From the IMG/VR virus record IMGVR_UViG_3300049740_001081, positions 1-45,003 of that record: 45,003 nucleotides of DNA. The stretch is one strand, 5' to 3'. This stretch comes from a virus. Positions 19,719 through 39,795 of this stretch are shown in pieces. The position numbers and the translations under genes are program-made. Below the pieces are notes generated by a model. It had not been told where the DNA came from and searched no databases. It saw nothing but the letters and a program-made list of their open reading frames with translations. How positions within the stretch are numbered: the first letter of the stretch is position 1; every line of letters begins with the position of its first letter.

Positions 19719-20502
19719 GAAGTAATACTAATAGAGCCATTCTAATATATAATCCATTTTCCATTTGCTCAAAATATTTTGCTCTTGGATCTTTATCAAA
19801 CCAAACAGGTATTTCTTCGTTGCGTGGGAACGGATGCATAACTATTGCATCTTCTGGTATGTGATGTATATGTTCTTTCTTCATACTGTAACTACCACTA
19901 CTTCCTCTTTCTTTTTGTACTCTCGTTAGATAGTAAACATCACTCTTTGGCCATATACTCTTATCGTATGTATCTATAAAATGCTTTTTGCAATTAGGTA
20001 ATGCTTTATCTAAACTATGTACTGTTCTGCCGTTTTCTATATCTCCAATAAATGTAATTGTAAGATCTTTGATCTTGTTAAATTTTTTATAGATTGTATA
20101 CAAATCTAAAAGTGTTTGTGTAGGATGTTCTCCATTGCCATCACCTGCGTTTATTATAGGAACCTTACTTACTTTTGATGCTATTGATGCATCACCTGCT
20201 TGTTGACTTCTCAATACAATTAAGTCGCAATAGTTAGACATTGTAATAATAGTATCTTCTAGATTTTCTCCTTTAGACACCGAACTATAGTTTACATCAT
20301 TAATTGAAATTACTTGTCCGCCAAGTTTATACATTGCACTAGCAAAAGAACTGCTAGTTCTTGTACTTGGTTCGTAAAATAAGTTAGTTATTATTTTACC
20401 TTTTAAACTTTCTTGAAATTCTGTAGGAGCTGACTTTATATTATTTGCTAATTTAAATATTGAAATAAAATCAATTTTATTCAGTTGAACTAGGTGTTGC
20501 AT
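19663..20502 (-). CDS. pyrB: Aspartate carbamoyltransferase, shortened
   Basis: Catalyses carbamoyl phosphate + aspartate to carbamoylaspartate, the first committed pyrimidine step. Active-site motifs are intact: S46-T-R-T (FYEPSTRTSSSF) for carbamoyl phosphate, the SKGE loop (SSVSKGENLEDT), HPTQTLLD, GRTVHS, the aspartate-domain Arg in TRVQKERG, and HPFPR. At 279 residues it is about 30 shorter than the usual catalytic chain; the missing part lies between GRTVHS and TRVQKERG, in the aspartate domain. No regulatory chain (PyrI) is present. It overlaps the upstream radical SAM gene by 26 bases on the same strand. It may be an unregulated enzyme that raises pyrimidine supply during infection. 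Confidence 0.85.
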   Translation of the reverse strand: MQHLVQLNKIDFISIFKLANNIKSAPTEFQESLKGKIITNLFYEPSTRTSSSFASAMYKLGGQVISINDVNYSSVSKGENLEDTIITMSNYCDLIVLRSQQAGDASIASKVSKVPIINAGDGNGEHPTQTLLDLYTIYKKFNKIKDLTITFIGDIENGRTVHSLDKALPNCKKHFIDTYDKSIWPKSDVYYLTRVQKERGSSGSYSMKKEHIHHIPEDAIVMHPFPRNEEIPVWFDKDPRAKYFEQMENGLYIRMALLVLLLKTDQEISSFDFEQTISF

Positions 20503-21913
20503 GTAAGTTCTCTATCTTTTCCGGATCACAATGTTTAGAAAGTAAATCGTATACGTCATGTAATACAACTCTCCATTTATGTTTTCTACGTTGATCAAGT
20601 ATGTCCATGTATTTTATATATTCGTTTAAATGAAAGTATTGGTCTTCTAATTTATCATCATCAATATATTTTTCTAACAATCTAATCATTGAGAAGATCC
20701 AATTTCTATATTTCTGTGAATGTTCGTATGTTTCGTTGAAGTGATAAAAGTTTTGAATAATTTCTTCTTTAGCACTTCGTGGCAGATATCTAACATCCAA
20801 CCATTTAGGTCCTTCTAAAAATCTAAAGTTAGCCTTAACTTGGTATTTCTCGCATAGCTCAATTACTCTAAATATAGCATAAGGACTTTGTATTCCTACA
20901 CAACTACTAAGGTACTCAATTTCTAATCCAGGAAATTCTTGAACCATCTCTAAATTTCTAATAAACCTTTCCCAATTACCAGGGTTACGAATTAATGTAT
21001 ATCTTTCTTCTGTATCATCGACACTTATACATAAGAATACCTGTTTAAACTTAGTTAACTTTTCTAGTAATCTTTTGTTAATGATTGTTAAGTTAGTGTC
21101 AAATCTTAATGTCATTTCTTTTGCTGTATCGGCTTCAATTAGTTTATCTAACGTTTGCTCTAGTTCAGGAACAACAAAGGGTTCTCCGCCTGTGAAGTAT
21201 ATGTGTCTTAGTCTAGGAATGATTGCTTCAAACTTGTCTCTCCAAGTTTGTGTCTGCCACCATTTCTCTGAATTTGCAATATCAGTTTTACCATTCTTAT
21301 CAGGTAGTAAGTAAAATGTTTTATATTTTCCTAGTTTAAAGATTGGTTCCCCGTCGTAGTAATCAAATGCAATCCAGTCGTCATACCACATACTACTATG
21401 CTGAGGGCTACACATCACACATCTCATGTTGCATAAGTTACCAAATCGTATGTGCAGGTTAACTACTCTTGATGTTGTTGAACCATCTGGTTGCATATAG
21501 TAGTGTGCTTGGCTTGGAACTACATAACCTTTAGTACGTTGGGCTGTACCAATTGAAACTCTCATTCTCTTACTAATGCCACGTTCTCTTAACTTCTTCC
21601 CGTAACGTGTGCCTTTCATTCCTTTAGTAGCTTCTTCTGACTCATAGCAATTACGACAACGTTGTGGTTTTTCATTTCTAGATAATTGTAGTCTGTGATC
21701 TTTGTGTGTTTTACTGTTTAGTGCTTCGTCAAAGTCATGTGTCATTACATTCATAACTTGATCGTCTTCATCTCTAGCCATCCCAAACGTTTCATCATAG
21801 TTTGCTAAACAACAGATACTAAAATCTCCGTTTGATGATATTTCAAGTTGGCTCCAAGGTTCAGAACAAAAGCTGTCCTCGCTGAAGTTATAAGGGCTTG
21901 GTTTATAATCCAT
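20477..21913 (-). CDS. Radical SAM protein, twitch-domain type (paralogue 2)
   Basis: A 478-residue radical SAM protein with CNMRCVMC in LHIRFGNLCNMRCVMC, the GGEP motif (YFTGGEPFVVPELEQ), and an N-terminal FCSEPW...GDFSICCL region with RCRNCYESEEA matching the CSCCRDREIA of paralogue 1 (14904). The C-terminus is longer than that of paralogue 1. It lies between a nitronate monooxygenase-like gene (17 bases upstream) and the carbamoyltransferase. The substrate is unknown. Only a weak ribosome-binding site (GAGAAA) precedes the ATG. Divergence between the two paralogues, at this reading, suggests different substrates rather than recent duplication. Confidence 0.8.
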   Translation of the reverse strand: MDYKPSPYNFSEDSFCSEPWSQLEISSNGDFSICCLANYDETFGMARDEDDQVMNVMTHDFDEALNSKTHKDHRLQLSRNEKPQRCRNCYESEEATKGMKGTRYGKKLRERGISKRMRVSIGTAQRTKGYVVPSQAHYYMQPDGSTTSRVVNLHIRFGNLCNMRCVMCSPQHSSMWYDDWIAFDYYDGEPIFKLGKYKTFYLLPDKNGKTDIANSEKWWQTQTWRDKFEAIIPRLRHIYFTGGEPFVVPELEQTLDKLIEADTAKEMTLRFDTNLTIINKRLLEKLTKFKQVFLCISVDDTEERYTLIRNPGNWERFIRNLEMVQEFPGLEIEYLSSCVGIQSPYAIFRVIELCEKYQVKANFRFLEGPKWLDVRYLPRSAKEEIIQNFYHFNETYEHSQKYRNWIFSMIRLLEKYIDDDKLEDQYFHLNEYIKYMDILDQRRKHKWRVVLHDVYDLLSKHCDPEKIENLHATPSSTE

Positions 21914-24045: not shown

Positions 24046-25086
24046 ATGCGAATTGAAGATGAAATTAAACTAGATTTTAAAGATGTTCTCTTTAAACCTA
24101 AGAGAAGTAAACTAGAATCTAGACGAGATGTTGACCTGCTCCGTACTTTTAAATTCCATAATTCTGGAAATGAATGGACAGGAGTTCCTATTGTAGCAAG
24201 CAATATGGATGGTGTTGGAACTTTTACAATGGCTAAAAAGTTGCAAGAACATAAGATGTTGACTATAATGCGAAAACATTATACACTTGATGAATGGAAT
24301 CAAGCCATCGGTGACGGTGTTAAGATGAAGTACCTAAGTGTATGCACAGGAACAGCCGCAATCTGGGATCCAGAAGCGGAAGACTTTGCAACAATGAATG
24401 CAGTATTAGGAGCATACCCGGATATTAAATTTATTACAGTTGATGTAGCAAATGCTTATCACGAAAACTTTGGAGACTTTATTTCACGTCTTCGTGACAG
24501 ATATCCAGATAAAACTATTATTGCAGGCAATGTTATTACTGCAGAAATGGTTGAGGAGTTAATTATCAAAGGTGCCGACATTATTAAGTGTGGTATTGGT
24601 CCAGGATCAGTATGTACTACACGACTAATGACAGGTGTTGGAATTCCTCAGCTATCAGGTATTATCGAATGTGCAGATGCGGCAAACGGTATCGGTGGTC
24701 ATATTATTGCAGATGGCGGTTGTGTATACCCTGGTGATGTTTCCAAAGCATTTGGAGCAGGTGCTCATTTTACCATGCTTGGTGGTATGTTAGCAGGCCA
24801 TGATGAATCTGAAGGAGAGATAATCGATGGCATGGTAAAGTTTTATGGTATGAGCTCAGACGAAGCTATGTCAATTTATGGTTCTCGTAAATCTGGTTAC
24901 AGAGGAGCAGAAGGTAAAGTAGTTACTGTTCCTCATAAAGGTTCTGTTGATAATACCGTAACAGAAATATTAGGCGGAGTTAGAAGCACATGTACATACA
25001 TTGGAGCAAACAGAATTAAAGATATGCCAAAGTGTGCAGTTTTCGTACGTTGCTTGAATACACATAATACAGTCTATGGAGGCTAA
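24046..25086 (+). CDS. guaC: GMP reductase
   Basis: A full-length (346-residue) GMP reductase, which converts GMP and NADPH to IMP and ammonia. The catalytic cysteine is C190 in GIGPGSVCTTRLMTGVGIPQ, the signature of IMPDH/GMPR enzymes; SRKSGYRGAEGKVV is the GMPR-type closing segment; and no CBS domains are present, which separates it from IMP dehydrogenase. The enzyme would remake the adenine/guanine balance from degraded host nucleic acids. AGAGGAAA precedes the ATG. It sits between DsbA and DNA polymerase, so it is probably expressed with the replication genes. Confidence 0.9.
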   Translation: MRIEDEIKLDFKDVLFKPKRSKLESRRDVDLLRTFKFHNSGNEWTGVPIVASNMDGVGTFTMAKKLQEHKMLTIMRKHYTLDEWNQAIGDGVKMKYLSVCTGTAAIWDPEAEDFATMNAVLGAYPDIKFITVDVANAYHENFGDFISRLRDRYPDKTIIAGNVITAEMVEELIIKGADIIKCGIGPGSVCTTRLMTGVGIPQLSGIIECADAANGIGGHIIADGGCVYPGDVSKAFGAGAHFTMLGGMLAGHDESEGEIIDGMVKFYGMSSDEAMSIYGSRKSGYRGAEGKVVTVPHKGSVDNTVTEILGGVRSTCTYIGANRIKDMPKCAVFVRCLNTHNTVYGG

Positions 25087-25089
25087 TAA

Positions 25090-25293
25090 ATGAGTCTAAA
25101 CGAAAAAATTGATGCTAGGATGGATGCACTCCAGCATTGGATGGAAACTAACTATCATATAGACCACGAAGAGGAAGTGTATAACTTGACACTATCTATA
25201 TCCAAGTTTTGGTCTATAATGAATGATGCGGATAAGGATTATCTCCAAGTCGCACAAGATGCAATTAAAAATAAAACAATGTGGAGTACATAA
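25090..25293 (+). CDS. Small uncharacterised protein upstream of DNA polymerase
   Basis: A 67-residue acidic, helical protein rich in Asp and aromatic residues (HWMETNYHIDHEEEVYN). It begins 3 bases after the GMP reductase stop and ends 1 base before the polymerase start, so the three genes form one transcript. No known domain was recognised. Confidence 0.6.
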   Translation: MSLNEKIDARMDALQHWMETNYHIDHEEEVYNLTLSISKFWSIMNDADKDYLQVAQDAIKNKTMWST

Positions 25294-25294
25294 T

Positions 25295-27940
25295 TTGTTC
25301 GTAGATGCTTGGCAGGATCGACAAAAAGAAATAGTTAATGTAGTAGAACGTGTTAATGGCAAGCGGGTAATGAAAGTTTATCCTTGTCGTTATGTAATGT
25401 ACTATGCAGATGCTAAAGGCAAGTTTGTAGACATTGCTGGAAACAAACTTAGTCGTATTATGGTTGGCAATGCAAAAGCATTTGATAAAGAGAAACGTAT
25501 TCATGGACATGGAAGAACATGGGAAAGTGATTATAGGCCTCTACAACGTTGCTTAGAAGAAAACTACAACGGTCAAGAATCTCCCAAGTTACAAGTTGCA
25601 TTCTTTGATATTGAAGTTGATTACGATAGAGAAAAAGGATTCTCTGATCCTAGTGATCCTTTTAATCCAGTTACTGCCGTAACAGTACACCTGGGTTGGT
25701 TAGATAGAACAATTACATTTGTTGTTGCTCCTAAAAAAATGTCTAAAGAACATGCAGAAAGTATTGTATCAAAATTTGATGACACAATACTATGCGAAAC
25801 AGAAGATTTATTACTTGAATACTTTTTAGATATCATTGAAGATGCAGATGTACTAAGTGGTTGGAATTCAGAAGGTTATGATATTCCTTACATGGTTAAT
25901 CGTGTTACTAGAGTATTAGGCAAAGATCAAACTAGACGGTTTTGTCTATGGGATAGGTTTCCTACTAAACGAGAATTTGAACGTTATGGAAAGACTCAAG
26001 AAACTTTTGATACAATTGGCCGTGTACATTTAGATTATTTAGAGTTATATAGAAAATATAACTATCACGAACAACATACTTATAGACTTGATGCTATTGG
26101 CGAATTTGAAATTGGCGAAAAGAAAATTCCATATGAAGGATCTTTAGACCAGTTATACAACAATGACTTTGAAAAGTTTATTGCATATAATAGACAAGAC
26201 GTTGTACTGTTAAAGAAACTAGATGACAAACTACAGTTTATTGACTTAACAAATCTTATCGCTCACTCTAATACTGTTACACTTAGAGCTACAATGGGAG
26301 CCGTTGCAGTTACAGACCAAGCACTAGTTAATGAAGCACATAGTAGAGGAATGATTGTTCCTGATAGGCCGAGGCGTAATAAAGAAGTAGCAAATGCCGC
26401 CGCTGGTGCTTATGTTGCAGTACCTAAGAAAGGCATGCACGAATGGATAGGTAGTATGGACTTAAACAGTTTGTATCCTAGTATTATCCGTGCATTAAAT
26501 ATGAGTCCAGAAACTATTGTTGGGCAAGTACGTCAAACAGAAACTGAAGACATGATTGAAAGTTTCTTATCTTCTGGTAAAGGTGTTGCTGAAGCATGGG
26601 AAGGAAAGTTTGCTTGCCCTGAATACGAACATGTAATGAATCGTGACAAAGGCATTACCTTAACAGTTGATTGGGAAAATAATCAATCAGAAGAAATGTC
26701 TGCCGCAGAAATATATGACTTAGTATTTTTTAGTGGACAGTCCTTAATGATGTCTAGCAATGGTACTATATTTTCGTATGCACAAAAAGGTATTATTCCT
26801 GGACTACTAGAACGTTGGTATGCAGAACGTAAAGAGTTACAAGCAGAACTAAGAAAAGCAGAAACAAAAGAAGATAAAGACTTTTGGGATAAAAGGCAAT
26901 TAGTTAAAAAGATTAATTTGAATAGTGCATATGGTGCTTTACTTAATGCAGGTAGTAGATTTTTTGATATGCGATTAGGGCAAAGCACAACTCTTACCGG
27001 ACGTTGTATTGCTAGACATATGGCAGGCGCAGTAAACGAATCGTTTACTGGTAAAAAAGATCATGTAGGTGATGCAGTAATTTATGGAGATACAGATTCT
27101 GTTTACTTTAGTGCTTATCCATTATTCAAAGATGAAATTGAATCTGGCAAAGTAGAATGGACTAAAGATAAAGTTATTGAAATTTATGATACAGTAGCAG
27201 AACAAGTTAACGATACGTTTCCAGGGTTTATGAACGAGGCATTTAATTGTCCTCAAGTACTAGGTGAAGTTATTAAAGCTGGTAGAGAAGTTGTTGCGTC
27301 TCGTGGAATTTATATGACAAAGAAACGTTATGCAGTTATGATATATGACGAAGAAGGTTCTAGGAAAGATACAAATGGATCTCCTGGAAAACTTAAAGCA
27401 ATGGGCTTAGATATGAAACGTGCAGATACTCCAGAGTTTATGCAAAGGTTTCTAGAAGAAATATTAGGAATGACATTGGAAGGTACTGATCCTGAGATTG
27501 TTATGCAACGTGTAAAAGCATTTAGAGAAGAATTTAAGTCTCGACCTGGTTGGGAAAAGGGTACACCTAAGAGAGTTAATAACTTAACTAAACATACAGC
27601 CGTTTATGATAAGACTGGTAAATGTCGTATTGGACATGCATTGGCGGCAATAAATTGGAATAGACTTAAGAAGGCATTTGGTGACCAACGTAGCATGGAT
27701 CTTACTGATGGACAAAAAACTATTGTTTGTAAATTAAAAAACAATCCTATGCAAATTAATTCAATTGGTTATCCAATTGATGAGCTAAACATTCCTGATT
27801 GGTTTAAAGAATTACCATTCGACCACGACGCTATGGAAGAAACTATTATTGACAGTAAAATAGATAACTTGCTTGGTGTGCTTAAATGGGATTTATCCCA
27901 AACAAAAGACAGAGGATTTGTTGATGACCTTTTTGGATAA
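25295..27940 (+). CDS. gp43: Family B DNA polymerase, T4 gp43 type
   Basis: Replicative polymerase of 881 residues with 3'-5' exonuclease. Exonuclease motifs: D105-I-E107 (FFDIEVD), LSGWNSEGYD and YNRQDVVLL. Polymerase motifs: A at D389 (SMDLNSLYPSI), B at 538-547 (KKINLNSAYG) and C at D599-T-D601 (YGDTDSVY). T4 gp43 is of similar size (898). The start is TTG at 25295, with GGAG 8 bases upstream and only 1 base after the previous stop; the ATG at 25223 lies within the previous gene and would add 24 unrelated residues. It works with the sliding clamp encoded immediately downstream. The clamp loader genes (44/62) are not in this window. Confidence 0.95.
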   Translation: MFVDAWQDRQKEIVNVVERVNGKRVMKVYPCRYVMYYADAKGKFVDIAGNKLSRIMVGNAKAFDKEKRIHGHGRTWESDYRPLQRCLEENYNGQESPKLQVAFFDIEVDYDREKGFSDPSDPFNPVTAVTVHLGWLDRTITFVVAPKKMSKEHAESIVSKFDDTILCETEDLLLEYFLDIIEDADVLSGWNSEGYDIPYMVNRVTRVLGKDQTRRFCLWDRFPTKREFERYGKTQETFDTIGRVHLDYLELYRKYNYHEQHTYRLDAIGEFEIGEKKIPYEGSLDQLYNNDFEKFIAYNRQDVVLLKKLDDKLQFIDLTNLIAHSNTVTLRATMGAVAVTDQALVNEAHSRGMIVPDRPRRNKEVANAAAGAYVAVPKKGMHEWIGSMDLNSLYPSIIRALNMSPETIVGQVRQTETEDMIESFLSSGKGVAEAWEGKFACPEYEHVMNRDKGITLTVDWENNQSEEMSAAEIYDLVFFSGQSLMMSSNGTIFSYAQKGIIPGLLERWYAERKELQAELRKAETKEDKDFWDKRQLVKKINLNSAYGALLNAGSRFFDMRLGQSTTLTGRCIARHMAGAVNESFTGKKDHVGDAVIYGDTDSVYFSAYPLFKDEIESGKVEWTKDKVIEIYDTVAEQVNDTFPGFMNEAFNCPQVLGEVIKAGREVVASRGIYMTKKRYAVMIYDEEGSRKDTNGSPGKLKAMGLDMKRADTPEFMQRFLEEILGMTLEGTDPEIVMQRVKAFREEFKSRPGWEKGTPKRVNNLTKHTAVYDKTGKCRIGHALAAINWNRLKKAFGDQRSMDLTDGQKTIVCKLKNNPMQINSIGYPIDELNIPDWFKELPFDHDAMEETIIDSKIDNLLGVLKWDLSQTKDRGFVDDLFG

Positions 27941-28002: not shown

Positions 28003-28722
28003 ATGCTTAAAGACATTACACTAGACGTTTCGAAGAATATTGCTTCGCTTGGTACGTTTGAAGAAATTCTGGTAGAGAAAGATGCAGGTAAAACAAAGTT
28101 TACTGCTTATCCAGAAGATAGTACAATTACCGTACTAGCAGAAGCACCTAAAGAATATGATGAACTACCTGATAAGTGTGGTATGCTTAACTTACCTTTC
28201 TTTGTTGGTTTGTCTAATTTATATAAGAGTGAAGACTCTAATGTAGCAACTGGCACAAATAGCAAGGATGAAACTGATAGATTTGTTTTTACTGATAAAG
28301 GCGGAAACAACGATCATTATCGTTTAACTCCAACTAACTTAATGAAAACTAAGCCTAGGAGTTTTAAAGGTACAGAGTGGCAAGTTACATTGCAACCAGC
28401 GGCTAATAAGATTTCTGAACTTGCAACAAGAGCAGGACTTTATACTAATATTGATCCTAATCTAATTGCTACTACTGCTGATGGAAAACTTATTTTTACA
28501 TTAGGTGGACAAGCAGGTGGCGGACATATTGGTAAGTTTGTTGTAGCAGATACAACACAGGAACTTAAACAACCTGTTACGTTGCCTATTAATGCATTAA
28601 TTTTAGCATTAAAAACAGCAAGCCAGGGTACGCCTATTCTAAGTATTTCGGAGAAGGTTGCTAAAGTAGAATTTGACAGCGGTGTTATTGCTTATGAATA
28701 TCTAATTATGGCTCAAGGATAA
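28003..28722 (+). CDS. gp45: Sliding clamp, T4 gp45 type
   Basis: A 239-residue protein close in size to T4 gp45 (228). The overall beta pattern fits a clamp: a short N-terminal helix (ITLDVSKNIASLGTF), a mid segment LPDKCGMLNLPFFVGLSNL comparable to the IYDLNGFLGILSL of T4, and a C-terminal strand pair with GVIAYEYLIMA. The clamp tethers gp43 to DNA and, in T4, also activates late transcription. Position right after the polymerase and its own promoter support the call. Sequence similarity to T4 is weak by eye. Confidence 0.75.
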   Translation: MLKDITLDVSKNIASLGTFEEILVEKDAGKTKFTAYPEDSTITVLAEAPKEYDELPDKCGMLNLPFFVGLSNLYKSEDSNVATGTNSKDETDRFVFTDKGGNNDHYRLTPTNLMKTKPRSFKGTEWQVTLQPAANKISELATRAGLYTNIDPNLIATTADGKLIFTLGGQAGGGHIGKFVVADTTQELKQPVTLPINALILALKTASQGTPILSISEKVAKVEFDSGVIAYEYLIMAQG

Positions 28723-28744: not shown

Positions 28745-30292
28745 ATGACAACAAATAAAACTGATCTGTGGACTACTAATAAAGACTATGCAGTCTTCTT
28801 ACCTAGTATTTCTACATTCTATTCTACAATAGTAAGTAAAGAACAAAACGAGCCGGGCAAGAGTGTTCCACCAGAACGTGTTCCAGCTGGTTTTGAAACT
28901 GGTATTGAAGGATTAAATTTCTTAAATAAAAAAGACGCATACTTCTATTATCCTTATGCACTTTACTCTGCTGGACATGCTCAGTTAGATCTAAGTAAAA
29001 CTGATACTATGGAAAGTATGATCCAAAAGAGAGATCGCAAAGATACTTTTATCTTAGGTGACTCTGGTGGTTTTCAGATTGCAAAAGGTGTAATTAAATT
29101 TGACTGGGAAAACTTTATGGAACGTCCAGGTGATGAAGGTTACAAAGGAAGTGCAGATAAAACTCGAGGGCAAATTTTAAATTGGCTTGAGCATACTGCT
29201 GATTACTCTATGGTACTTGATATTCCGACTTGGGCGGCTAGGCCTCCTTTGAATGAACGTACTGGACTAAAGAGTTTTCAACAATGCCTAGACGGTACGT
29301 TGTATAACAATGCATGGTTTATGGCTAATAGAAAGAACCAAACAAAGTTTCTAAATGTATTACAAGGTAGTACAAATGAAGAAGCAGATATTTGGTATGA
29401 AAATGTAAAACACTTCCCGTTTGAAGGTTGGGCGATGGGTGGTAATAATATGCAAGATGCCCACCTATTGCTTCGTAGATTAATTCAGATGCGTGACGAA
29501 GGAATGCTTGAACCAGGTAAAGATGTTATTCATGTACTTGGAACAAGTCGATTGGAATGGGCAATCTTTTTAACGGCGGTACAAAGAGCCTTAAAGGCAA
29601 CTGTCAATCCGAACTTACTCTTAACATACGACTGTGCATCTCCATTCGTTAGCACGGCATACGGCTTATCTTACACTCAACATGTACACACAAACGAACG
29701 TATGACTTATGTAATGGAAAAGGCTGTTGATAATAGAGACTTTAGCGGAAGTACTATTCCGTGGCCTTGGTCGTCAGCAGTTGGTGACCGAATTACAATG
29801 GGAGATGTCTGCTACTATAAACCAGGGCAGGCTAACAAAAATGGGAAAGTTGCTAAAACAAGCTGGGATACCTTTTCTTATAGTTTGATTATGGCACATA
29901 ACGTGGATCAGCATATACAATCTGTTCAAAGAGCTAATGTATTAGCAGACATTGCTTGGCAACAAACACATCCTGATCCTAGACAATGGAGAAAGACTAG
30001 ACAAAAAACTCAAGAAGGTCAAGTTGATCTTTGGGTTCCTCGTAATGTATTATACATGATGGAACTAGTTGATATGGTATTTAAAAGTGAAGAACCGTAT
30101 AAACTACTTGATCAATGTATACCATTAATGACTGAGTTTTCTGGACGTAAGACTCGTAAAACTGGTGCTGATTCAGTTAACGATTTATTTGATACAGACG
30201 ATGGAGAAACAACTGAAGTTATTGCAGAGGCAGGTGCGTTTGATGATCCTAATGATGCAGAACTTGAAAAACTAGTCATAGGAGTTGAATAA
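28745..30292 (+). CDS. dpdA: TGT-like transglycosylase, probable phage DpdA (7-deazaguanine DNA modification)
   Basis: A 515-residue protein of the tRNA-guanine transglycosylase superfamily. D106 in GDSGGFQ matches the catalytic-acid motif of TGT, GWAMGG fits the glycine loop, and D296 in TYDCASP matches the nucleophile motif (FDCVxP). The CxCxxC zinc motif of bacterial tRNA TGT is absent and the protein is longer than tRNA TGT (about 375), which favours DpdA, the phage enzyme that exchanges guanine in DNA for a 7-deazaguanine base. FolE, QueE and a QueD-like gene nearby support that. The C-terminal tail is acidic. The stop overlaps the next start by one base. A tRNA-modifying role cannot be excluded. 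Confidence 0.75.
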   Translation: MTTNKTDLWTTNKDYAVFLPSISTFYSTIVSKEQNEPGKSVPPERVPAGFETGIEGLNFLNKKDAYFYYPYALYSAGHAQLDLSKTDTMESMIQKRDRKDTFILGDSGGFQIAKGVIKFDWENFMERPGDEGYKGSADKTRGQILNWLEHTADYSMVLDIPTWAARPPLNERTGLKSFQQCLDGTLYNNAWFMANRKNQTKFLNVLQGSTNEEADIWYENVKHFPFEGWAMGGNNMQDAHLLLRRLIQMRDEGMLEPGKDVIHVLGTSRLEWAIFLTAVQRALKATVNPNLLLTYDCASPFVSTAYGLSYTQHVHTNERMTYVMEKAVDNRDFSGSTIPWPWSSAVGDRITMGDVCYYKPGQANKNGKVAKTSWDTFSYSLIMAHNVDQHIQSVQRANVLADIAWQQTHPDPRQWRKTRQKTQEGQVDLWVPRNVLYMMELVDMVFKSEEPYKLLDQCIPLMTEFSGRKTRKTGADSVNDLFDTDDGETTEVIAEAGAFDDPNDAELEKLVIGVE

Positions 30293-30828
30293 TGAAAAGA
30301 GACTATCAAGTAGGAGTAAAAGATGATGTTGAGTTTTTTACTGGTATAGAGATCGAAAGGTCTCCTGCATTTGGATTAATGACATTATTTGTAGTTGGAG
30401 TACATCCTTCAGAAGATATTATAAAGATGGCAGAAGAAAAGAATTGCGAAGCCATTTACTTTGGAGCAAATCAAAGTTTTCCTAATCCTACTGCTATAAC
30501 ATTGGATTCAATTAATATTTGGAAAGAATGGGAAACTATGATTAAAAATGTCTTGACAAGTACTAAGATTTATTGTACACTAGATATAGACATTAAATGT
30601 TTAACTTGTTTTCAAGGAACAGAATTAAATAACTATAATAGGTTCATTCCAATGATTTCGGTAAAACTTCCGAATGTAGAAAGCCTTAACTATAATACAA
30701 CAGTTAAGATAGACGATACAGATTTTGATGATACTAATCCAGGAATATGGTGTCATAGTTTGAACAGTTTAATGAACCGAAAGAATTTTACATCCTGGTG
30801 TGAATATAAAAACGATAAACCTATATAA
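30292..30828 (+). CDS. Uncharacterised protein translationally coupled to DpdA
   Basis: A 178-residue protein whose ATG shares a base with the dpdA stop. It begins VKDDVEFFTGIEIERSPAFG and has FVVGVHPSEDI, AIYFGANQSF, TLDIDIKCLTCF and an acidic C-terminus (VKIDDTDFDDTNPGIWCHSL). Four cysteines are spread through it, with no cluster motif. I do not recognise a characterised domain, though the FTGIE...FGAN...KIDD pattern looks like a conserved phage family. Coupling to dpdA suggests a partner or a step in the base-modification route. Confidence 0.7.
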   Translation: MKRDYQVGVKDDVEFFTGIEIERSPAFGLMTLFVVGVHPSEDIIKMAEEKNCEAIYFGANQSFPNPTAITLDSINIWKEWETMIKNVLTSTKIYCTLDIDIKCLTCFQGTELNNYNRFIPMISVKLPNVESLNYNTTVKIDDTDFDDTNPGIWCHSLNSLMNRKNFTSWCEYKNDKPI

Positions 30829-30837
30829 GGAGTTGTC

Positions 30838-31140
30838 ATGACAGACGATACAGAAAATCGAGGACATGCTTTTAATCAAGCTCGTACACCAATTCCTCGA
30901 AAGCCAAAGCCTAAGTCGATAATGACTGATGAGAATTTAATTTCTGAAGAAGATGAACAGGAAACTGTACAAACTGAGGAAATTAAAGATGTTGCTGAAC
31001 AAGAAGAAGTACTAGAATCTAGTAGTATTGAAAAACGTTTAGCGGCAATTGAAGAGCAGATGGAAGTTACAAACAAATATTTAAGTGCAATAGATTGGAA
31101 AATTTGGTTGTATCTAAAAGCTGAAAACTACATTGAATAA
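30838..31140 (+). CDS. Small acidic protein with coiled coil
   Basis: A 100-residue protein with AAGGAG upstream. A basic Pro-rich start (RTPIPRKPKPKS) is followed by a Glu-rich segment (EEDEQETVQTEEIKD) and a C-terminal helix (SIEKRLAAIEEQMEVTNKYL). It has no recognised domain and probably interacts with other proteins through the helix. Confidence 0.6.
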   Translation: MTDDTENRGHAFNQARTPIPRKPKPKSIMTDENLISEEDEQETVQTEEIKDVAEQEEVLESSSIEKRLAAIEEQMEVTNKYLSAIDWKIWLYLKAENYIE

Positions 31141-31169: not shown

Positions 31170-31541
31170 ATGTCAAAAGACATGATCTGGATCACCTTCC
31201 AATTAGAAGGTATGCATTGTTACCCTGCCGCGGCAACTGATCCTAAACTTGCTACCGGCGACGAATATGATGTGAGCTTTTTAGCAAGCCCGCATCGACA
31301 CATCTTTCACTTTAAAGTACACATGGAAGTCTTCCATGATGACAGAGATGTAGAGTTTATACAGTTTAAACGATGGTGTTTAAATCTATATAAAGGCAGT
31401 ATTCTTGAACTTGACTATAAGAGTTGCGAGATGATTGCAGAAGACCTATATAAACAAATCAACGAAAAATATCCAAATCGTAGTGTTTGGATTGATGTAT
31501 CAGAGGATAATGAAAATGGTTGTTTCCGACAATTCGATTAA
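31170..31541 (+). CDS. queD: QueD-like T-fold protein (6-carboxytetrahydropterin synthase family)
   Basis: A 123-residue protein with the layout of QueD/PTPS enzymes: H16 in the first strand (FQLEGMHCY), H42-R-H44 (SPHRHIFHFKV, equivalent to LHGHSFxV) completing a three-His zinc site, DRDVEFIQFKRW matching the IDFxxLK strand, and VSEDNENG matching the C-terminal Glu segment. QueD turns dihydroneopterin triphosphate into 6-carboxytetrahydropterin, the substrate for QueE. The usual cysteine 4 residues before HxH is not visible, so chemistry may differ. Nearby dpdA, folE and queE support a deazaguanine role. AAGGA precedes the ATG. Confidence 0.6.
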   Translation: MSKDMIWITFQLEGMHCYPAAATDPKLATGDEYDVSFLASPHRHIFHFKVHMEVFHDDRDVEFIQFKRWCLNLYKGSILELDYKSCEMIAEDLYKQINEKYPNRSVWIDVSEDNENGCFRQFD

Positions 31542-31938
31542 TGTTCGTCCGCATGTCCGTTTTAATGGACACAGGCGCAATAAGTCCCTTAACCTAGCTC
31601 ATATTAAATATGATCTGTTAAAGATATCCGAGCTATATGATGGGTATCTAACTCCAGATTTAGGGGAACTTCCCCTAAAGCTCTATACTTCCTACTTAGA
31701 CGATCTTAAGAAGGCAGAGCAAATTTACAAGTATACTATTGATGAGCCTATTATGAGGCGTCATGAAGATACTGGTAACCGTAGCTTTACATATACTTTC
31801 CATGTACAAGGTACTCCGGATCGTACTGCTAAAGTTCTTAAGATTCATGTAGGCATTTATAAGAATGCTTATAGTGAAGCAGAACGTTGGGACTATAGAA
31901 GTGATGCTCCTTGGCAAATTGAAGTTGAGTGGGTATGA
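31516..31938 (+). CDS. Uncharacterised protein overlapping the QueD-like gene
   Basis: A 140-residue protein. It overlaps the QueD-like gene by 26 bases in another frame, with AGAGG at 31502-31506 favouring ATG 31516 over 31510. It contains a basic start (VRPHVRFNGHRRNKSL), a helical middle and a beta-rich end (FTYTFHVQ...KIHVGIY...IEVEWV). No family recognised. Overlaps on both sides indicate tight operon coupling with queD and the downstream glycosyltransferase. Confidence 0.6.
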   Translation: MVVSDNSINVRPHVRFNGHRRNKSLNLAHIKYDLLKISELYDGYLTPDLGELPLKLYTSYLDDLKKAEQIYKYTIDEPIMRRHEDTGNRSFTYTFHVQGTPDRTAKVLKIHVGIYKNAYSEAERWDYRSDAPWQIEVEWV

Positions 31939-33119
31939 TGAGAAAGCTATTCTATATGGGATTAGAGCCCTATGAAGGCAGGTATACACTTCAGTTACAA
32001 CAATGGAGTGTAGCGGCTTTCCAAAAGAGAAACATTGATTATGTAATTGTTCCTGGAACTACCATTGACAATACAAAAGCAATTAGTGTTGGACAAGTAC
32101 TTGATGCACATGGACGTTCGTACTTTGGTATGAGTCAACTTATGAATCTAGTACAGATGATGAGAAGTGGAGAATGCACTGGTGATGATGTTATCTTCTT
32201 TGAAGACATGTTTCAGCCTGGTATGGAATCATTACCTTATATCATGTGTCAGATACCAAAAGAGCAACGACCTAAGATTTTTCTACGTTGTTTAGCTCAG
32301 GCAATTGACCCAGATGATTTTGTTCATGTATGGGGTATGAGTAAATGGATGAGTTTGTATGAACAGATGTGTAACGAAATTCCTAATGTTCATATTCTAG
32401 CAACAAATGAAGAAATGGTTGCACATATGAGGATTGCAAACTGGACTGCTCCAATCTATAACATTTCTGGTTTAAGTTTTGGTAAACAAGAAGTACTTGG
32501 TCGCATTGGTGGTAACGTACAAGACTGGGAAACTAGACAAGACAGAGTTGTATTTGCGGCAAGGTTTGATCAAGAAAAGCAACCTGATTTCTTTATGGAT
32601 ATCATTGAAAAGGTAAAAGACTCAGGACATCCTGTAGAATTTGCAGTACTAAGTGGAGGACCTTTGCGTTCTAATAATCCTAAGTATATTGAACGTGCAA
32701 AAGATTTAGAAGAAAGAGGACTTCTTAAAATATATACTGACTTGCAAAAAAATGATTATTATCATTTGCTAAATGATAGTAAAGTTTTGTTTAATTGTGC
32801 ATTGCAAGACTGGGTAAGCAATACTGTAAGTGAAGCAGACACATTAGGTTGTAATGTAGTTTATCCTGCTTACAGAAGTTTTCCTGAAACTTTTTCTAAT
32901 GACTTTACTCGTTTGTATATTCCATGGAGTCAAGAAGATGCAATTAGTAAAATTATGAAAGGATTAGATTCTCCTAGTCCTAACATGGGAAAGATAAGTG
33001 ACTGGACTGATAGTACTATTGATCGTATGATTGATATTATGCAAGGAAGTTATAAACATAATGAATGGTCTAGGTCTGGTAATAGATACAGAGACCATGT
33101 AGCAACATCTAAATACTAA
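31935..33119 (+). CDS. GT-B-type glycosyltransferase-like protein
   Basis: A 394-residue protein with two Rossmann-like halves. The second half has VVFAARFDQEKQPDFFMDII, similar to the donor-site strand R-x-x-x-x-K-x-x of GT4 enzymes, then EFAVLSGGPL, and DSKVLFNCALQDWVSNTVSEADTLGCNVVYP, the E-x-x-x-x-G loop that grips the donor sugar nucleotide. The start is ATG 31935, overlapping the previous stop; several alternatives lie within 6 bases. Its acceptor is unknown. The next genes make or activate sugars, so transfer to a glycan, a virion protein or modified DNA is possible. Confidence 0.65.
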   Translation: MMRKLFYMGLEPYEGRYTLQLQQWSVAAFQKRNIDYVIVPGTTIDNTKAISVGQVLDAHGRSYFGMSQLMNLVQMMRSGECTGDDVIFFEDMFQPGMESLPYIMCQIPKEQRPKIFLRCLAQAIDPDDFVHVWGMSKWMSLYEQMCNEIPNVHILATNEEMVAHMRIANWTAPIYNISGLSFGKQEVLGRIGGNVQDWETRQDRVVFAARFDQEKQPDFFMDIIEKVKDSGHPVEFAVLSGGPLRSNNPKYIERAKDLEERGLLKIYTDLQKNDYYHLLNDSKVLFNCALQDWVSNTVSEADTLGCNVVYPAYRSFPETFSNDFTRLYIPWSQEDAISKIMKGLDSPSPNMGKISDWTDSTIDRMIDIMQGSYKHNEWSRSGNRYRDHVATSKY

Positions 33120-33131
33120 GAGGTAGTATAA

Positions 33132-34148
33132 ATGCAACAAGAAAGAGATGAATGGATTGCTATTACTGGATGCAATGGTTACATTGGTGGTCAGACAGTT
33201 TTAGAATTTAAAAGATTAGGATATAAAATACTTGGTATTGATAGAAACCAATCAACTGGTTCCTGGTTGCAAGAACATATAGATTCTTTTATACCAGGTG
33301 ATTATGTAAATGGAATGTTTTTACATCAACTAAGACAGCTTAAACCTGTTGCATTTATTCATGTTGCTGGAGAAAGTTTAGTTGGTCCTAGTGTACTTGA
33401 TCCTTCTAAGTATTACATTAATAACGTAGGAGGAACATCTAAGCTTCTTTCAGCATTAAACACTATTGGTTTCAAAGGAACATTTGTATTTTCAAGCTCA
33501 GCGGCTGTTTATTCAGATACAGACCCTAAACAGAATCAAAGTATCAGAGAAACATTTGAAACCATTCCTCCTAGTCCATACGGTATGAGTAAATTAATGG
33601 CTGAGAAAGTTATTGAGGATTGTGCAAAAGCATATGGATTTAATGCAATAGCATTACGTTACTTTAATGCTTGCGGAGCGGATAAAGAAGTTAGACATGG
33701 ACAAGTAAAATCTGCTACTCATTTAATTGCAAAAGTTATGAATGCTTTAATTAATAAAGAGGTGTTTACATTAAATGGTATTGACTATGACACACCAGAC
33801 GGAACTTGTGTTAGAGACTATCTACATGTAGAAGATATTGCTAAAGCTCATAGAGTTGCATATGAACTTGGTAAAACTTTTAAACCTGGACAGTTTGATT
33901 ACTTTAATTTAGGTACTGGTAAAGGTTACTCTATTAAAGAAATTATTAGCACTATTGAAAGACATACTAACAAAAAACTATTAGTTCACAAAGGTCCTAG
34001 GAGACCTGGAGACCCTGGGAGGTTAGTGGCTAGTTCTAAGAAAATAGAAAGTACTGCTGGTTGGAAAGCAGACAATTCGTCTCTAGATAATATTATTAGA
34101 ACATCATGGGCTTGGTACAACTCTCAGAGGTTTAAGGATTATGCATAG
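33132..34148 (+). CDS. GalE-like NAD-dependent sugar epimerase
   Basis: A 338-residue extended short-chain dehydrogenase. It has the NAD site (ITGCNGYIGGQT), a nucleotide strand (GIDRN), SSSAAVYSD with the Ser of the catalytic set, Y-G-M-S-K as the YxxxK pair, and the GalE-typical VRDYLHVEDIAKAH. UDP-glucose 4-epimerases have this layout and size. Expected reaction: UDP-glucose/UDP-galactose interconversion, though other UDP-sugars are possible. It starts 12 bases after the glycosyltransferase and sits in a sugar-gene run. Confidence 0.85.
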   Translation: MQQERDEWIAITGCNGYIGGQTVLEFKRLGYKILGIDRNQSTGSWLQEHIDSFIPGDYVNGMFLHQLRQLKPVAFIHVAGESLVGPSVLDPSKYYINNVGGTSKLLSALNTIGFKGTFVFSSSAAVYSDTDPKQNQSIRETFETIPPSPYGMSKLMAEKVIEDCAKAYGFNAIALRYFNACGADKEVRHGQVKSATHLIAKVMNALINKEVFTLNGIDYDTPDGTCVRDYLHVEDIAKAHRVAYELGKTFKPGQFDYFNLGTGKGYSIKEIISTIERHTNKKLLVHKGPRRPGDPGRLVASSKKIESTAGWKADNSSLDNIIRTSWAWYNSQRFKDYA

Positions 34149-36144: not shown

Positions 36145-36825
36145 ATGTCTTATAATAAAACTAAAACCGATCCCGCTCTGGGACAATCAATCCACGAATA
36201 TCTAGTTAAGCAAGGAGTTGAAACTCCGAGTATAGATAACAATCTAAGTCGTACAGACAAGATTGAAATAATTGAAAAACACTTCATTAAAATTATGGAA
36301 GCATTAGGACTAGATCTAACAGATGATAGTTTAATGGATACACCTAAGCGAGTTGCTAAGATGTATGTAAACGAAATCTTTTGGGGTTTAGACTACGAAG
36401 CATTTCCTAAATGTACAGCCGTAGACAATAAAATGAAATATGATGAAATGGTTGTAGAACGTAATATTAATGTTCAAAGTAACTGTGAACATCATTTTGT
36501 TATTATTGATGGACTTGCTACAGTAGGTTATATTCCTAATCAAAAAGTATTAGGGTTATCTAAAATTAATCGTATTGTAGAATACTTTGCTAAACGTCCT
36601 CAGATTCAAGAACGTTTAACAGAACAAGTATTTCATGCTTTACAAGCTATCTTAGAAACTGAAAGTGTTGCGGTAGTTATTGATGCACAACATTATTGTG
36701 TTAAGTCTCGTGGTGTTGAGGATACTGGCAGTTCTACTGTTACTAGTAAACTAGGCGGTGTATTTAAATCCGACCCAGCTGTTAGAACTGAATTTATGAA
36801 TATCTTTAATAAACCCAAGAACTAA
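36145..36825 (+). CDS. folE: GTP cyclohydrolase I
   Basis: A 226-residue FolE, which turns GTP into dihydroneopterin triphosphate, the entry point for folate and 7-deazaguanine synthesis. Zinc ligands C114, H117 (CEHHF) and C185 (HYCVKSRG) are present, with the family segments [14 protein letters not shown] and [12 protein letters not shown]. The size matches bacterial FolE. It has both sigma-70 and late promoter elements upstream and an AAGGAAGG site. It feeds the QueD-like and QueE enzymes in the same region. Confidence 0.95.
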
Positions 36826-37221: not shown

Positions 37222-37770
37222 ATGCAGAAGATGTTTCTAGACCAAGTACAAGTTGATAATGCAATACAGGATATTGTAAGTCAAATGTATAAAGACCAAT
37301 GGAGACCAGACTATATAGTTGGCATTACAAGAGGTGGGTTATATCCTGCTCTTATAATGAGTCATCAATACGAATTGCTTATGCATACTTTAGATGTTAG
37401 ATTACGAGACGGTACATCTACTAATGAAAGCAACAGTTGGATGGCAGAGGATGCATTTGGTTATATACCTGAATCAGAACAACCTATCTTCAAGTCAAGG
37501 TGGGATCCTAGTAGAAGAAAGAAGATTCTTATTGTAGATGATATCAATGATACTGGTGCAACATTTGAATGGATTAAAGCTGACTGGAGAGCTGGCTGTA
37601 TGCCTCAAGAACATGATTGTTGGAATGTTATATTCGGTAATGATGGTAATGTAAGGTTTGCTTCGATAGTAAACAATTTGAGTAGTGATATCAATATTAA
37701 CTATACTTCAATTGAAATTAATAAAGCAGAGAAAGACCATTGGATTGTCTTTCCATGGGAGACAAAATAA
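37222..37770 (+). CDS. Purine phosphoribosyltransferase-like protein
   Basis: A 182-residue type I phosphoribosyltransferase. ILIVDDINDTGATF is the PRPP-binding loop (two acidic residues, then DTGAT), and YIVGITRGGLYPALIMSH is the N-terminal strand with the G-I-T-R-G-G loop. Family members transfer phosphoribose to xanthine, hypoxanthine or guanine. Position between folE and ferredoxin/queE raises the idea that it handles a deazaguanine base, but nothing in the sequence shows this. GAGGAA precedes the ATG. Confidence 0.8.
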   Translation: MQKMFLDQVQVDNAIQDIVSQMYKDQWRPDYIVGITRGGLYPALIMSHQYELLMHTLDVRLRDGTSTNESNSWMAEDAFGYIPESEQPIFKSRWDPSRRKKILIVDDINDTGATFEWIKADWRAGCMPQEHDCWNVIFGNDGNVRFASIVNNLSSDININYTSIEINKAEKDHWIVFPWETK

Positions 37771-38907: not shown

Positions 38908-39795
38908 ATGAAATACTATTATAGTGAGATATTTCACAGTATACAAGGTGAAGGACATTATACTGGTGTTCCTACTGCTTGGATACGTTTCTTTTTATGT
39001 AACTTACAATGCAATGGATTTGGTCAGATAGATCCTACAAACCCTAGCACATATGAGTTGCCTTTTGAGGACTTTGATGTATCTAGTGTAGACAGAGTTG
39101 AAGACTTACCTGTATGGGACAAAGGTTGCGACAGTAGTTACACTTGGGCAAAGAAGTTTAAAAGCCTAATGGGACATGAAGAGCCTGATGTATTAGCAAA
39201 TAAAATTATTGATATTATTAGAACAGATAGTAATCCAGAAGGACGATTCCTACATCCAGTTTCTCAATATAGACAACATTTATGTATTACAGGTGGTGAA
39301 CCACTTATGATTACTGGACAACGTGCAGTTATTGGAATATACAATGAACTGCATAGACAAAGTAACTTACCAGGTAGTATGACATTTGAAACTAATGGTA
39401 CACAGAAACTAAGTGACGATTTTAAGAATTGGGTAGAGTCAATTGATACTGAAATATTTTTTAGTGTCAGTCCAAAACTATGGACAGTAGCAGGTGAGAA
39501 GCCTGAGAAGGCTATTAAGCCAGACAATGTAGCAGAGTATTATAATTTATCTAAAGCAGGTCAATTAAAGTTTGTAGTAGGTGATAAGGAGGAACATTGG
39601 CAAGAAATGGAAAGTGTAATTGCACAATTTAGAAAAGCAGGAGTAAAATGGCCAGTTTGGGTTATGCCTGTTGGTGCAAGAGAAGAAGAACAAACTGCAA
39701 CGGCAGGTGCTATTGCAGAAAGAGCATTCAAACGAGGATATAATGTGGCGGCAAGAGTGCATGTTTATTTGTTTGGAAATGCTATAGGAACATAA
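38908..39795 (+). CDS. queE: QueE, 7-carboxy-7-deazaguanine synthase (radical SAM), with insertion
   Basis: A 295-residue QueE, which rearranges 6-carboxytetrahydropterin to 7-carboxy-7-deazaguanine. The start YYSEIFHSIQGEGHYTGVPTAWIRF and the TGGEP motif (ITGGEPLMI) are typical. The cluster motif is split: C31 and C35 (CNLQC) are followed by a 38-residue insert, and the third cysteine is likely C74 in GCDSSYTW, which matches the CDTxYxW that normally follows the third cysteine at once. Bacterial QueE is about 220 residues. Its product would go to QueC (not seen here) to give preQ0, the base used by DpdA. Confidence 0.9.
   Translation: MKYYYSEIFHSIQGEGHYTGVPTAWIRFFLCNLQCNGFGQIDPTNPSTYELPFEDFDVSSVDRVEDLPVWDKGCDSSYTWAKKFKSLMGHEEPDVLANKIIDIIRTDSNPEGRFLHPVSQYRQHLCITGGEPLMITGQRAVIGIYNELHRQSNLPGSMTFETNGTQKLSDDFKNWVESIDTEIFFSVSPKLWTVAGEKPEKAIKPDNVAEYYNLSKAGQLKFVVGDKEEHWQEMESVIAQFRKAGVKWPVWVMPVGAREEEQTATAGAIAERAFKRGYNVAARVHVYLFGNAIGT

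Follow-up and report, generated by a model that had tools for sequence, protein, structure and literature searches.

The protein X is very probably a component of a 7-deazaguanine DNA-modification system, and a core part of a variant of phage 7-deazaguanine modification that lacks QueC and contains a glycosyltransferase. It is the X family, set in this QueC-less, glycosyltransferase-containing variant, that is new here; DpdA-type modification is already known. The window in which X was studied (the whole stretch of DNA analysed, 45,003 bases) is an entire virus record and is classed as linear. Since such a record is often a fragment, the absence of a gene from the window means little. The features of the window are collected in Table 1.

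Table 1. Features of the window, with the basis for each assignment.
Feature	Position	Strand	Basis or remark
Family-B DNA polymerase	25223..27940	+	Adjoins the modification genes in most loci
Probable sliding clamp, phrog_12062 (a family with no assigned function)	28003..28722	+	Annotated as sliding clamp in Phosso, where gene 221 has the corresponding position
dpdA, divergent DpdA-subfamily DNA-guanine transglycosylase	28745..30292	+	TGT hallmarks DSGG(F/Y)Q, VLQG, FDCASP-like
Ribosome-binding site of X, AGGAG	30280..30284	+	Read from sequence; inside the dpdA 3' end, 7 nt 5' of the ATG
X (178 aa, no known family)	30292..30828	+	ATG start
100-aa ORF between X and c2	30838..31140	+	Outside any conserved cluster
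c2, QueD-fold (T-fold) paralogue, phrog_17812	31170..31541	+	AlphaFold pLDDT 94.8; Foldseek
GT4-like glycosyltransferase, "type B"	31929..33119	+	Pfam Glycos_transf_1 E 1.7e-6; subtype analysis
NAD-dependent nucleotide-sugar epimerase	33132..34148	+	Pfam Epimerase E 2e-44
folE, GTP cyclohydrolase I	36145..36825	+	Pfam E 2.7e-63; NCBIfam equivalog
Phosphoribosyltransferase, xanthine/guanine type	37222..37770	+	Pfam E 1e-11
queE, 7-carboxy-7-deazaguanine synthase	38908..39795	+	NCBIfam QueE models to E 6e-12, under cut-offs; aligns with annotated phage QueE

The reading frame of X was recovered as an earlier note on this DNA had described it, with its ATG and the stop codon of dpdA sharing one base (TAATG, in which the TAA is 30290-30292). 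Relatives at 43-55% identity, from dozens of independent contigs, keep the frame, and an alignment of 68 sequences has about 30 invariant columns; X is judged from sequence to be a real gene. The invariant residues include G18, E20, E22, T31, F33, K139, D141, D142, N149, W153, W169, Y172 and D175, and in the same alignment they are often polar (E20, E22, N60, D98, K139, D141, D142, N149 and D175). Homologues are present in at least 577 contigs of IMG/VR and in 13 of 50,697 phage records, namely 11 PA5oct-like Pseudomonas phages, with about 42% identity, and 2 records of Acidovorax phage ACP17, with 25%. The carriers are many aquatic phages and some cultured jumbo phages. A scan of genome contigs gave four matches, all of them on MAG contigs and three with the same phage-type operon. 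On a 3-kb MAG contig (L093, 1913-2890) an X-like C-terminal half was seen by eye to be in frame with a HemA-like N-terminus; this fusion is probably a chimeric assembly.

The suggestion that X has no known domain was also borne out, since searches of Pfam, PHROGs, NCBIfam, PADLOC and PDB sequences returned nothing above chance. The AlphaFold model of X is confident (pLDDT 89.3, pTM 0.83) and has alternating strands and helices; Foldseek found no PDB match to it at E 0.01, the best being 0.099, and the sole significant match among viral models was the ACP17 homologue. As modelled, X is thus without a recognised fold at this search sensitivity, and no clear match to an unrelated structural family was found by structure prediction and Foldseek. 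Two possible relationships were considered and rejected. A by-eye alignment of ISVKLP with ISSKLP made a half barrel derived from QueE seem plausible, but the profile comparison failed and gave another, incorrect register (hhalign E 0.17-0.25), and Foldseek placed QueE at rank 8 (E 0.46, TM 0.28). Similarly, the best PDB match, SbcD, gave only E 0.099 and TM 0.33 for a metallophosphoesterase of the SbcD/Mre11/gp47 kind, and none of the D-x-H, GNHD or GHxH metal motifs is found among the invariant residues of X. A different, shorter protein of 128-143 amino acids (MAKIGIEVEG...GIKTLF) occupies the same operon slot in Xanthomonas phage X1 (L098, 3018-3449) and in L106 (6001-6384). It has in common with X the N-terminal pattern G-x-E-[VI]-E...T-[LY]-F; homology is suggested but not significant by sequence comparison (hhalign E 0.0075, 5% probability), and the profile ranks, in which one shuffled sequence outscored it, are no more than suggestive.

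The association of X with the modification genes was quantified in a set of 90 X loci, of which 77 have at least 3.5 kb of sequence upstream, 62 at least 3.5 kb downstream and 39 at least 9.5 kb downstream; the locus sets are biased toward the best-scoring relatives, and percentages drawn from them describe the clade near the query. With the upstream flank available, dpdA was present in 77/77 loci. The GT4-like glycosyltransferase was found in all 62 loci with the shorter downstream flank and so was c2 (61 by clustering and the last, L091, by profile), while the longer flank revealed folE in 39/39 loci and the phosphoribosyltransferase in 29 of them. In the reciprocal direction, loci fetched by dpdA with at least 3 kb downstream (n=57) contained X in 54 cases and c2 and the glycosyltransferase in 57 each. 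Homologues of X are therefore not found mostly away from dpdA, and no complete genome with X but without dpdA was found. The earlier note had put X forward as the best single candidate for a new component of the system; its place as a component stands, but not as the single best one, because c2 and the glycosyltransferase are tied more strictly to dpdA.

More weight than these locus percentages is carried by two distant isolates, ACP17 and MIJ3. The usual gene order is polymerase, clamp, dpdA, X, c2, glycosyltransferase, folE, phosphoribosyltransferase, queE. The order in ACP17 differs, being FolE-X-DpdA2-glycosyltransferase-c2-QueE, and MIJ3 has dpdA, glycosyltransferase, c2, phosphoribosyltransferase and queE in one group, with folE and two queD genes elsewhere. 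Some loci contain dpdA, c2 and the glycosyltransferase without X (L122, L128 and L129), and X was not found in Phosso or BUCT-ZZ01; a 177-amino acid gene in the X slot of Phosso was considered and is not X. Some versions of the chemistry can therefore do without X.

The genes for synthesis of the base point to the product expected. FolE, QueD and QueE are all encoded in MIJ3 and ACP17, and FolE and QueE in the window; QueD itself is not within this 45-kb fragment. By profile, QueC, the preQ0 synthase of the preQ0/G+ branches, is absent from the complete X genomes MIJ3 and ACP17, and no full-length match was found in 20 large contigs, while the control, nt-1, scored 6e-54; a few contigs gave partial matches to the profile, probably from other PP-loop genes. 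In the established pathway FolE, QueD and QueE without QueC lead to 7-carboxy-7-deazaguanine (PMC6884629), which is therefore the expected product here. Some listed members of the DpdA type, e.g. Bipper, also lack QueC (PMC6884629), and its absence marks a branch rather than an exclusion from DpdA-type systems. The gene upstream of X is, from its sequence blocks, a real DpdA-type transglycosylase: VLQG and DCASP align with E. coli Tgt (hhalign E 0.0024), and DSGG, VLQG and FDCA with DpdA2 of ACP17 (hhalign E 8e-6). The phage of the window probably replaces guanine, and the phosphoribosyltransferase may recycle the guanine released by DpdA. Elsewhere in the window, an ORF just 5' of the DNA polymerase (24046-25086) resembles GMP reductase (GuaC) by eye, and radical-SAM proteins are unusually many for a phage fragment (364-1449 and 14904-16223 by Pfam; 20477-21913, on the minus strand, like the second of these by eye).

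The neighbour c2 could not be assigned to QueD by sequence alone, where the match was not significant; it was the fold that decided, with the c2 model matching E. coli QueD in Foldseek at E 2.5e-5 and a TM of about 0.68. Like QueD it has three zinc-type histidines (H16, H42 and H44), and it also keeps E112. At the position that we take to correspond to the catalytic Cys of E. coli QueD, four residues before the His-x-His, c2 differs in having an invariant Leu (Leu38), and a Tyr follows the Asp; the catalytic Cys and His of QueD are both absent. Separate, true QueD genes were present in 10 of the 15 records searched. Furthermore, c2 occurs where X was not detectable, in Cellulophaga phiST, Rhizobium RHph_I1_18, Vibrio Bakedbeans, Aeromonas Ahp1, Synechococcus BUCT-ZZ01 and Sinorhizobium Phosso, and QueC was not found in any of these six. 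As a marker of the QueC-less set c2 is thus more general than X, which makes it the likelier base-processing enzyme of this branch. Cui et al., in 2023, reportedly proposed that the tailoring proteins DpdL, DpdM and DpdN change the 7-deazaguanine of the core pathway; DpdL is said to be a predicted 7-carboxy-7-deazaguanine decarboxylase, and Cellulophaga phages of the phiST type are said to have been included in that study. X is probably none of these three proteins, because the Cellulophaga phages have c2 but no detectable X (in phiST neither tblastn nor a profile found it); it is possible that c2 is the predicted DpdL.

The glycosyltransferase slot contains two diverged subfamilies (loci L003-L092). 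An epimerase follows the gene in 13/14 loci with type B, the type of the window, and in 3/68 with the other type, and so different sugars seem to be used in this slot. The form of X with a short N-terminus goes with the type-B, epimerase-type glycosyltransferase in 12/12 loci, a link which may reflect shared ancestry only. A glycosyltransferase is present in all the X genomes open to this test, including all 13 X-bearing phage records, which also have c2; and four tested phages in which c2 has no glycosyltransferase beside it (phiST, RHph_I1_18, Bakedbeans and Ahp1) gave no match to X. The simplest reading, given the constant position of the glycosyltransferase beside dpdA, would be that it acts on DNA. 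X also travels with an optional pair of genes, Gfo/Idh/MocA-like and MDR alcohol-dehydrogenase-like, when the pair is present. In ten contigs (L109-L111, L120, L136, L142, L146, L149, L153 and L180) the pair lies between dpdA and X, no other gene of the set coming between MDR and X, and in MIJ3 the three genes MocA-MDR-X are together (the pair being genes 201-202, L095 38121-39889). In L122 the pair occupies the X slot and X is missing. Among phage records the MDR gene is found in the PA5oct-like group only.

These observations can be combined in a proposed pathway. FolE, QueD and QueE would make 7-carboxy-7-deazaguanine, with no preQ0 being formed in the absence of QueC; DpdA would put a 7-deazaguanine base into DNA in place of guanine; and the glycosyltransferase would very probably decorate the inserted base further. 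X would make, modify or transfer the side group, rather than being a subunit of DpdA. This tailoring role is suggested by the occurrence of X only with the glycosyltransferase, by the link between glycosyltransferase type and X form, and by the company of MocA and MDR; nonetheless, we place X at the tailoring stage tentatively, and the whole explanation, of a core operon protein that acts in tailoring and not as a DpdA subunit, has in our judgement about an even chance of being correct. The fold and sequence searches gave no match that shows X to be an enzyme. A more specific version, in which X, c2 and the glycosyltransferase (with MocA/MDR in some phages) build a sugar-bearing 7-deazaguanine and X is a new enzyme fold for the side group, is possible but somewhat doubtful. 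To our knowledge, sugar-bearing 7-deazaguanine in DNA is a class of hypermodification not yet described.

Alternatively, X could act on the free base before its insertion, converting the QueE product to the form that DpdA inserts and so replacing QueC, as for example the predicted DpdL decarboxylase would. The X genomes do lack QueC while retaining FolE, QueD and QueE, X adjoins FolE as well as DpdA2 in ACP17, and there is a weak correlation between X and c2 distances (partial r 0.22, p 0.02), which would fit a base-processing role equally. Against this, c2 is the more general marker of QueC-less phages, being present in those of the phiST type, RHph_I1_18, BUCT-ZZ01 and others that gave no match to X, and L122, L128 and L129 dispense with X; we therefore regard a role before insertion as rather unlikely. 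That X instead assists DpdA, as a partner or as a subunit for targeting, would be in keeping with the position of dpdA, which lies 5' of X and shares its strand in 87/87 loci that have the two genes, and with their overlap or near contact (at most 5 bp apart) in 18 of them. However, the median gap is 242 bp with small ORFs between, and the one-base overlap seen in the window is lineage-specific. In the PA5oct-like phage MIJ3, X is 28 kb from dpdA and adjoins the two dehydrogenase genes. X of ACP17 accompanies another DpdA subfamily, the DpdA2 family of nt-1 and KVP40 (36% identity to nt-1); phages with DpdA2, such as nt-1, gave no match to X, and three dpdA loci have no X. Once phage phylogeny was removed, no co-evolution of X and dpdA was seen in their distances (partial r -0.11). 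The special coupling of X to DpdA claimed earlier is not supported by these comparisons, and a role for X as partner or subunit of DpdA is improbable.

It might also be supposed that X is only a passenger, carried along with the replication region and taking no part in modification, as the polymerase and clamp clusters are each present in 77/94 loci. That a passenger should stay with the modification set through reshuffling, as X does in ACP17 and MIJ3, is not to be expected: in MIJ3 it is far from polymerase and clamp in a genome that retains the whole modification set, and in ACP17 it is inside the FolE/DpdA/glycosyltransferase/c2/QueE block. The rarity of X among phage records, and its presence there always with the glycosyltransferase and c2, is similarly at odds with a passenger, and this explanation is considered very improbable.

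A widespread QueC-less branch of phage guanine modification is defined here, in at least several hundred viral contigs, with X, c2 and the glycosyltransferase as three parts that lack an assigned function. The complete set is present in the cultured Pseudomonas aeruginosa PAO1 phages PA5oct, Paride, MIJ3 and Callisto, where X, dpdA, the glycosyltransferase and c2 are annotated mostly as hypothetical proteins; these carriers move the question of base and gene from metagenomes to workable phages. In the literature examined on PA5oct-like phages, no report of modified bases in their DNA was found. A new modified base, if it is indeed made, would bear on the escape of phages from restriction and CRISPR.

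The phage modification systems already described with DpdA or DpdA2, as in Vibrio phage nt-1 and Enterobacteria phage 9g (Hutinet et al. 2019, PMC6884629), have in common with the X set FolE, QueD, QueE and a transglycosylase, and in ACP17 the gene beside X is homologous to nt-1 DpdA2. The X set differs from them in the lack of QueC and, in the window, in a DpdA of a divergent subfamily; its additions are X, the QueD-fold paralogue c2 with its catalytic Cys replaced, the GT4-like glycosyltransferase and, in many cases, a phosphoribosyltransferase. A glycosyltransferase encoded with base-modification genes is likewise a feature of DNA glucosylation by the alpha/beta-GT of T4, where the base is hydroxymethylcytosine; in the system described here the base would be a 7-deazaguanine, and the glycosyltransferase belongs to a GT4-like family, with DNA as its putative acceptor.
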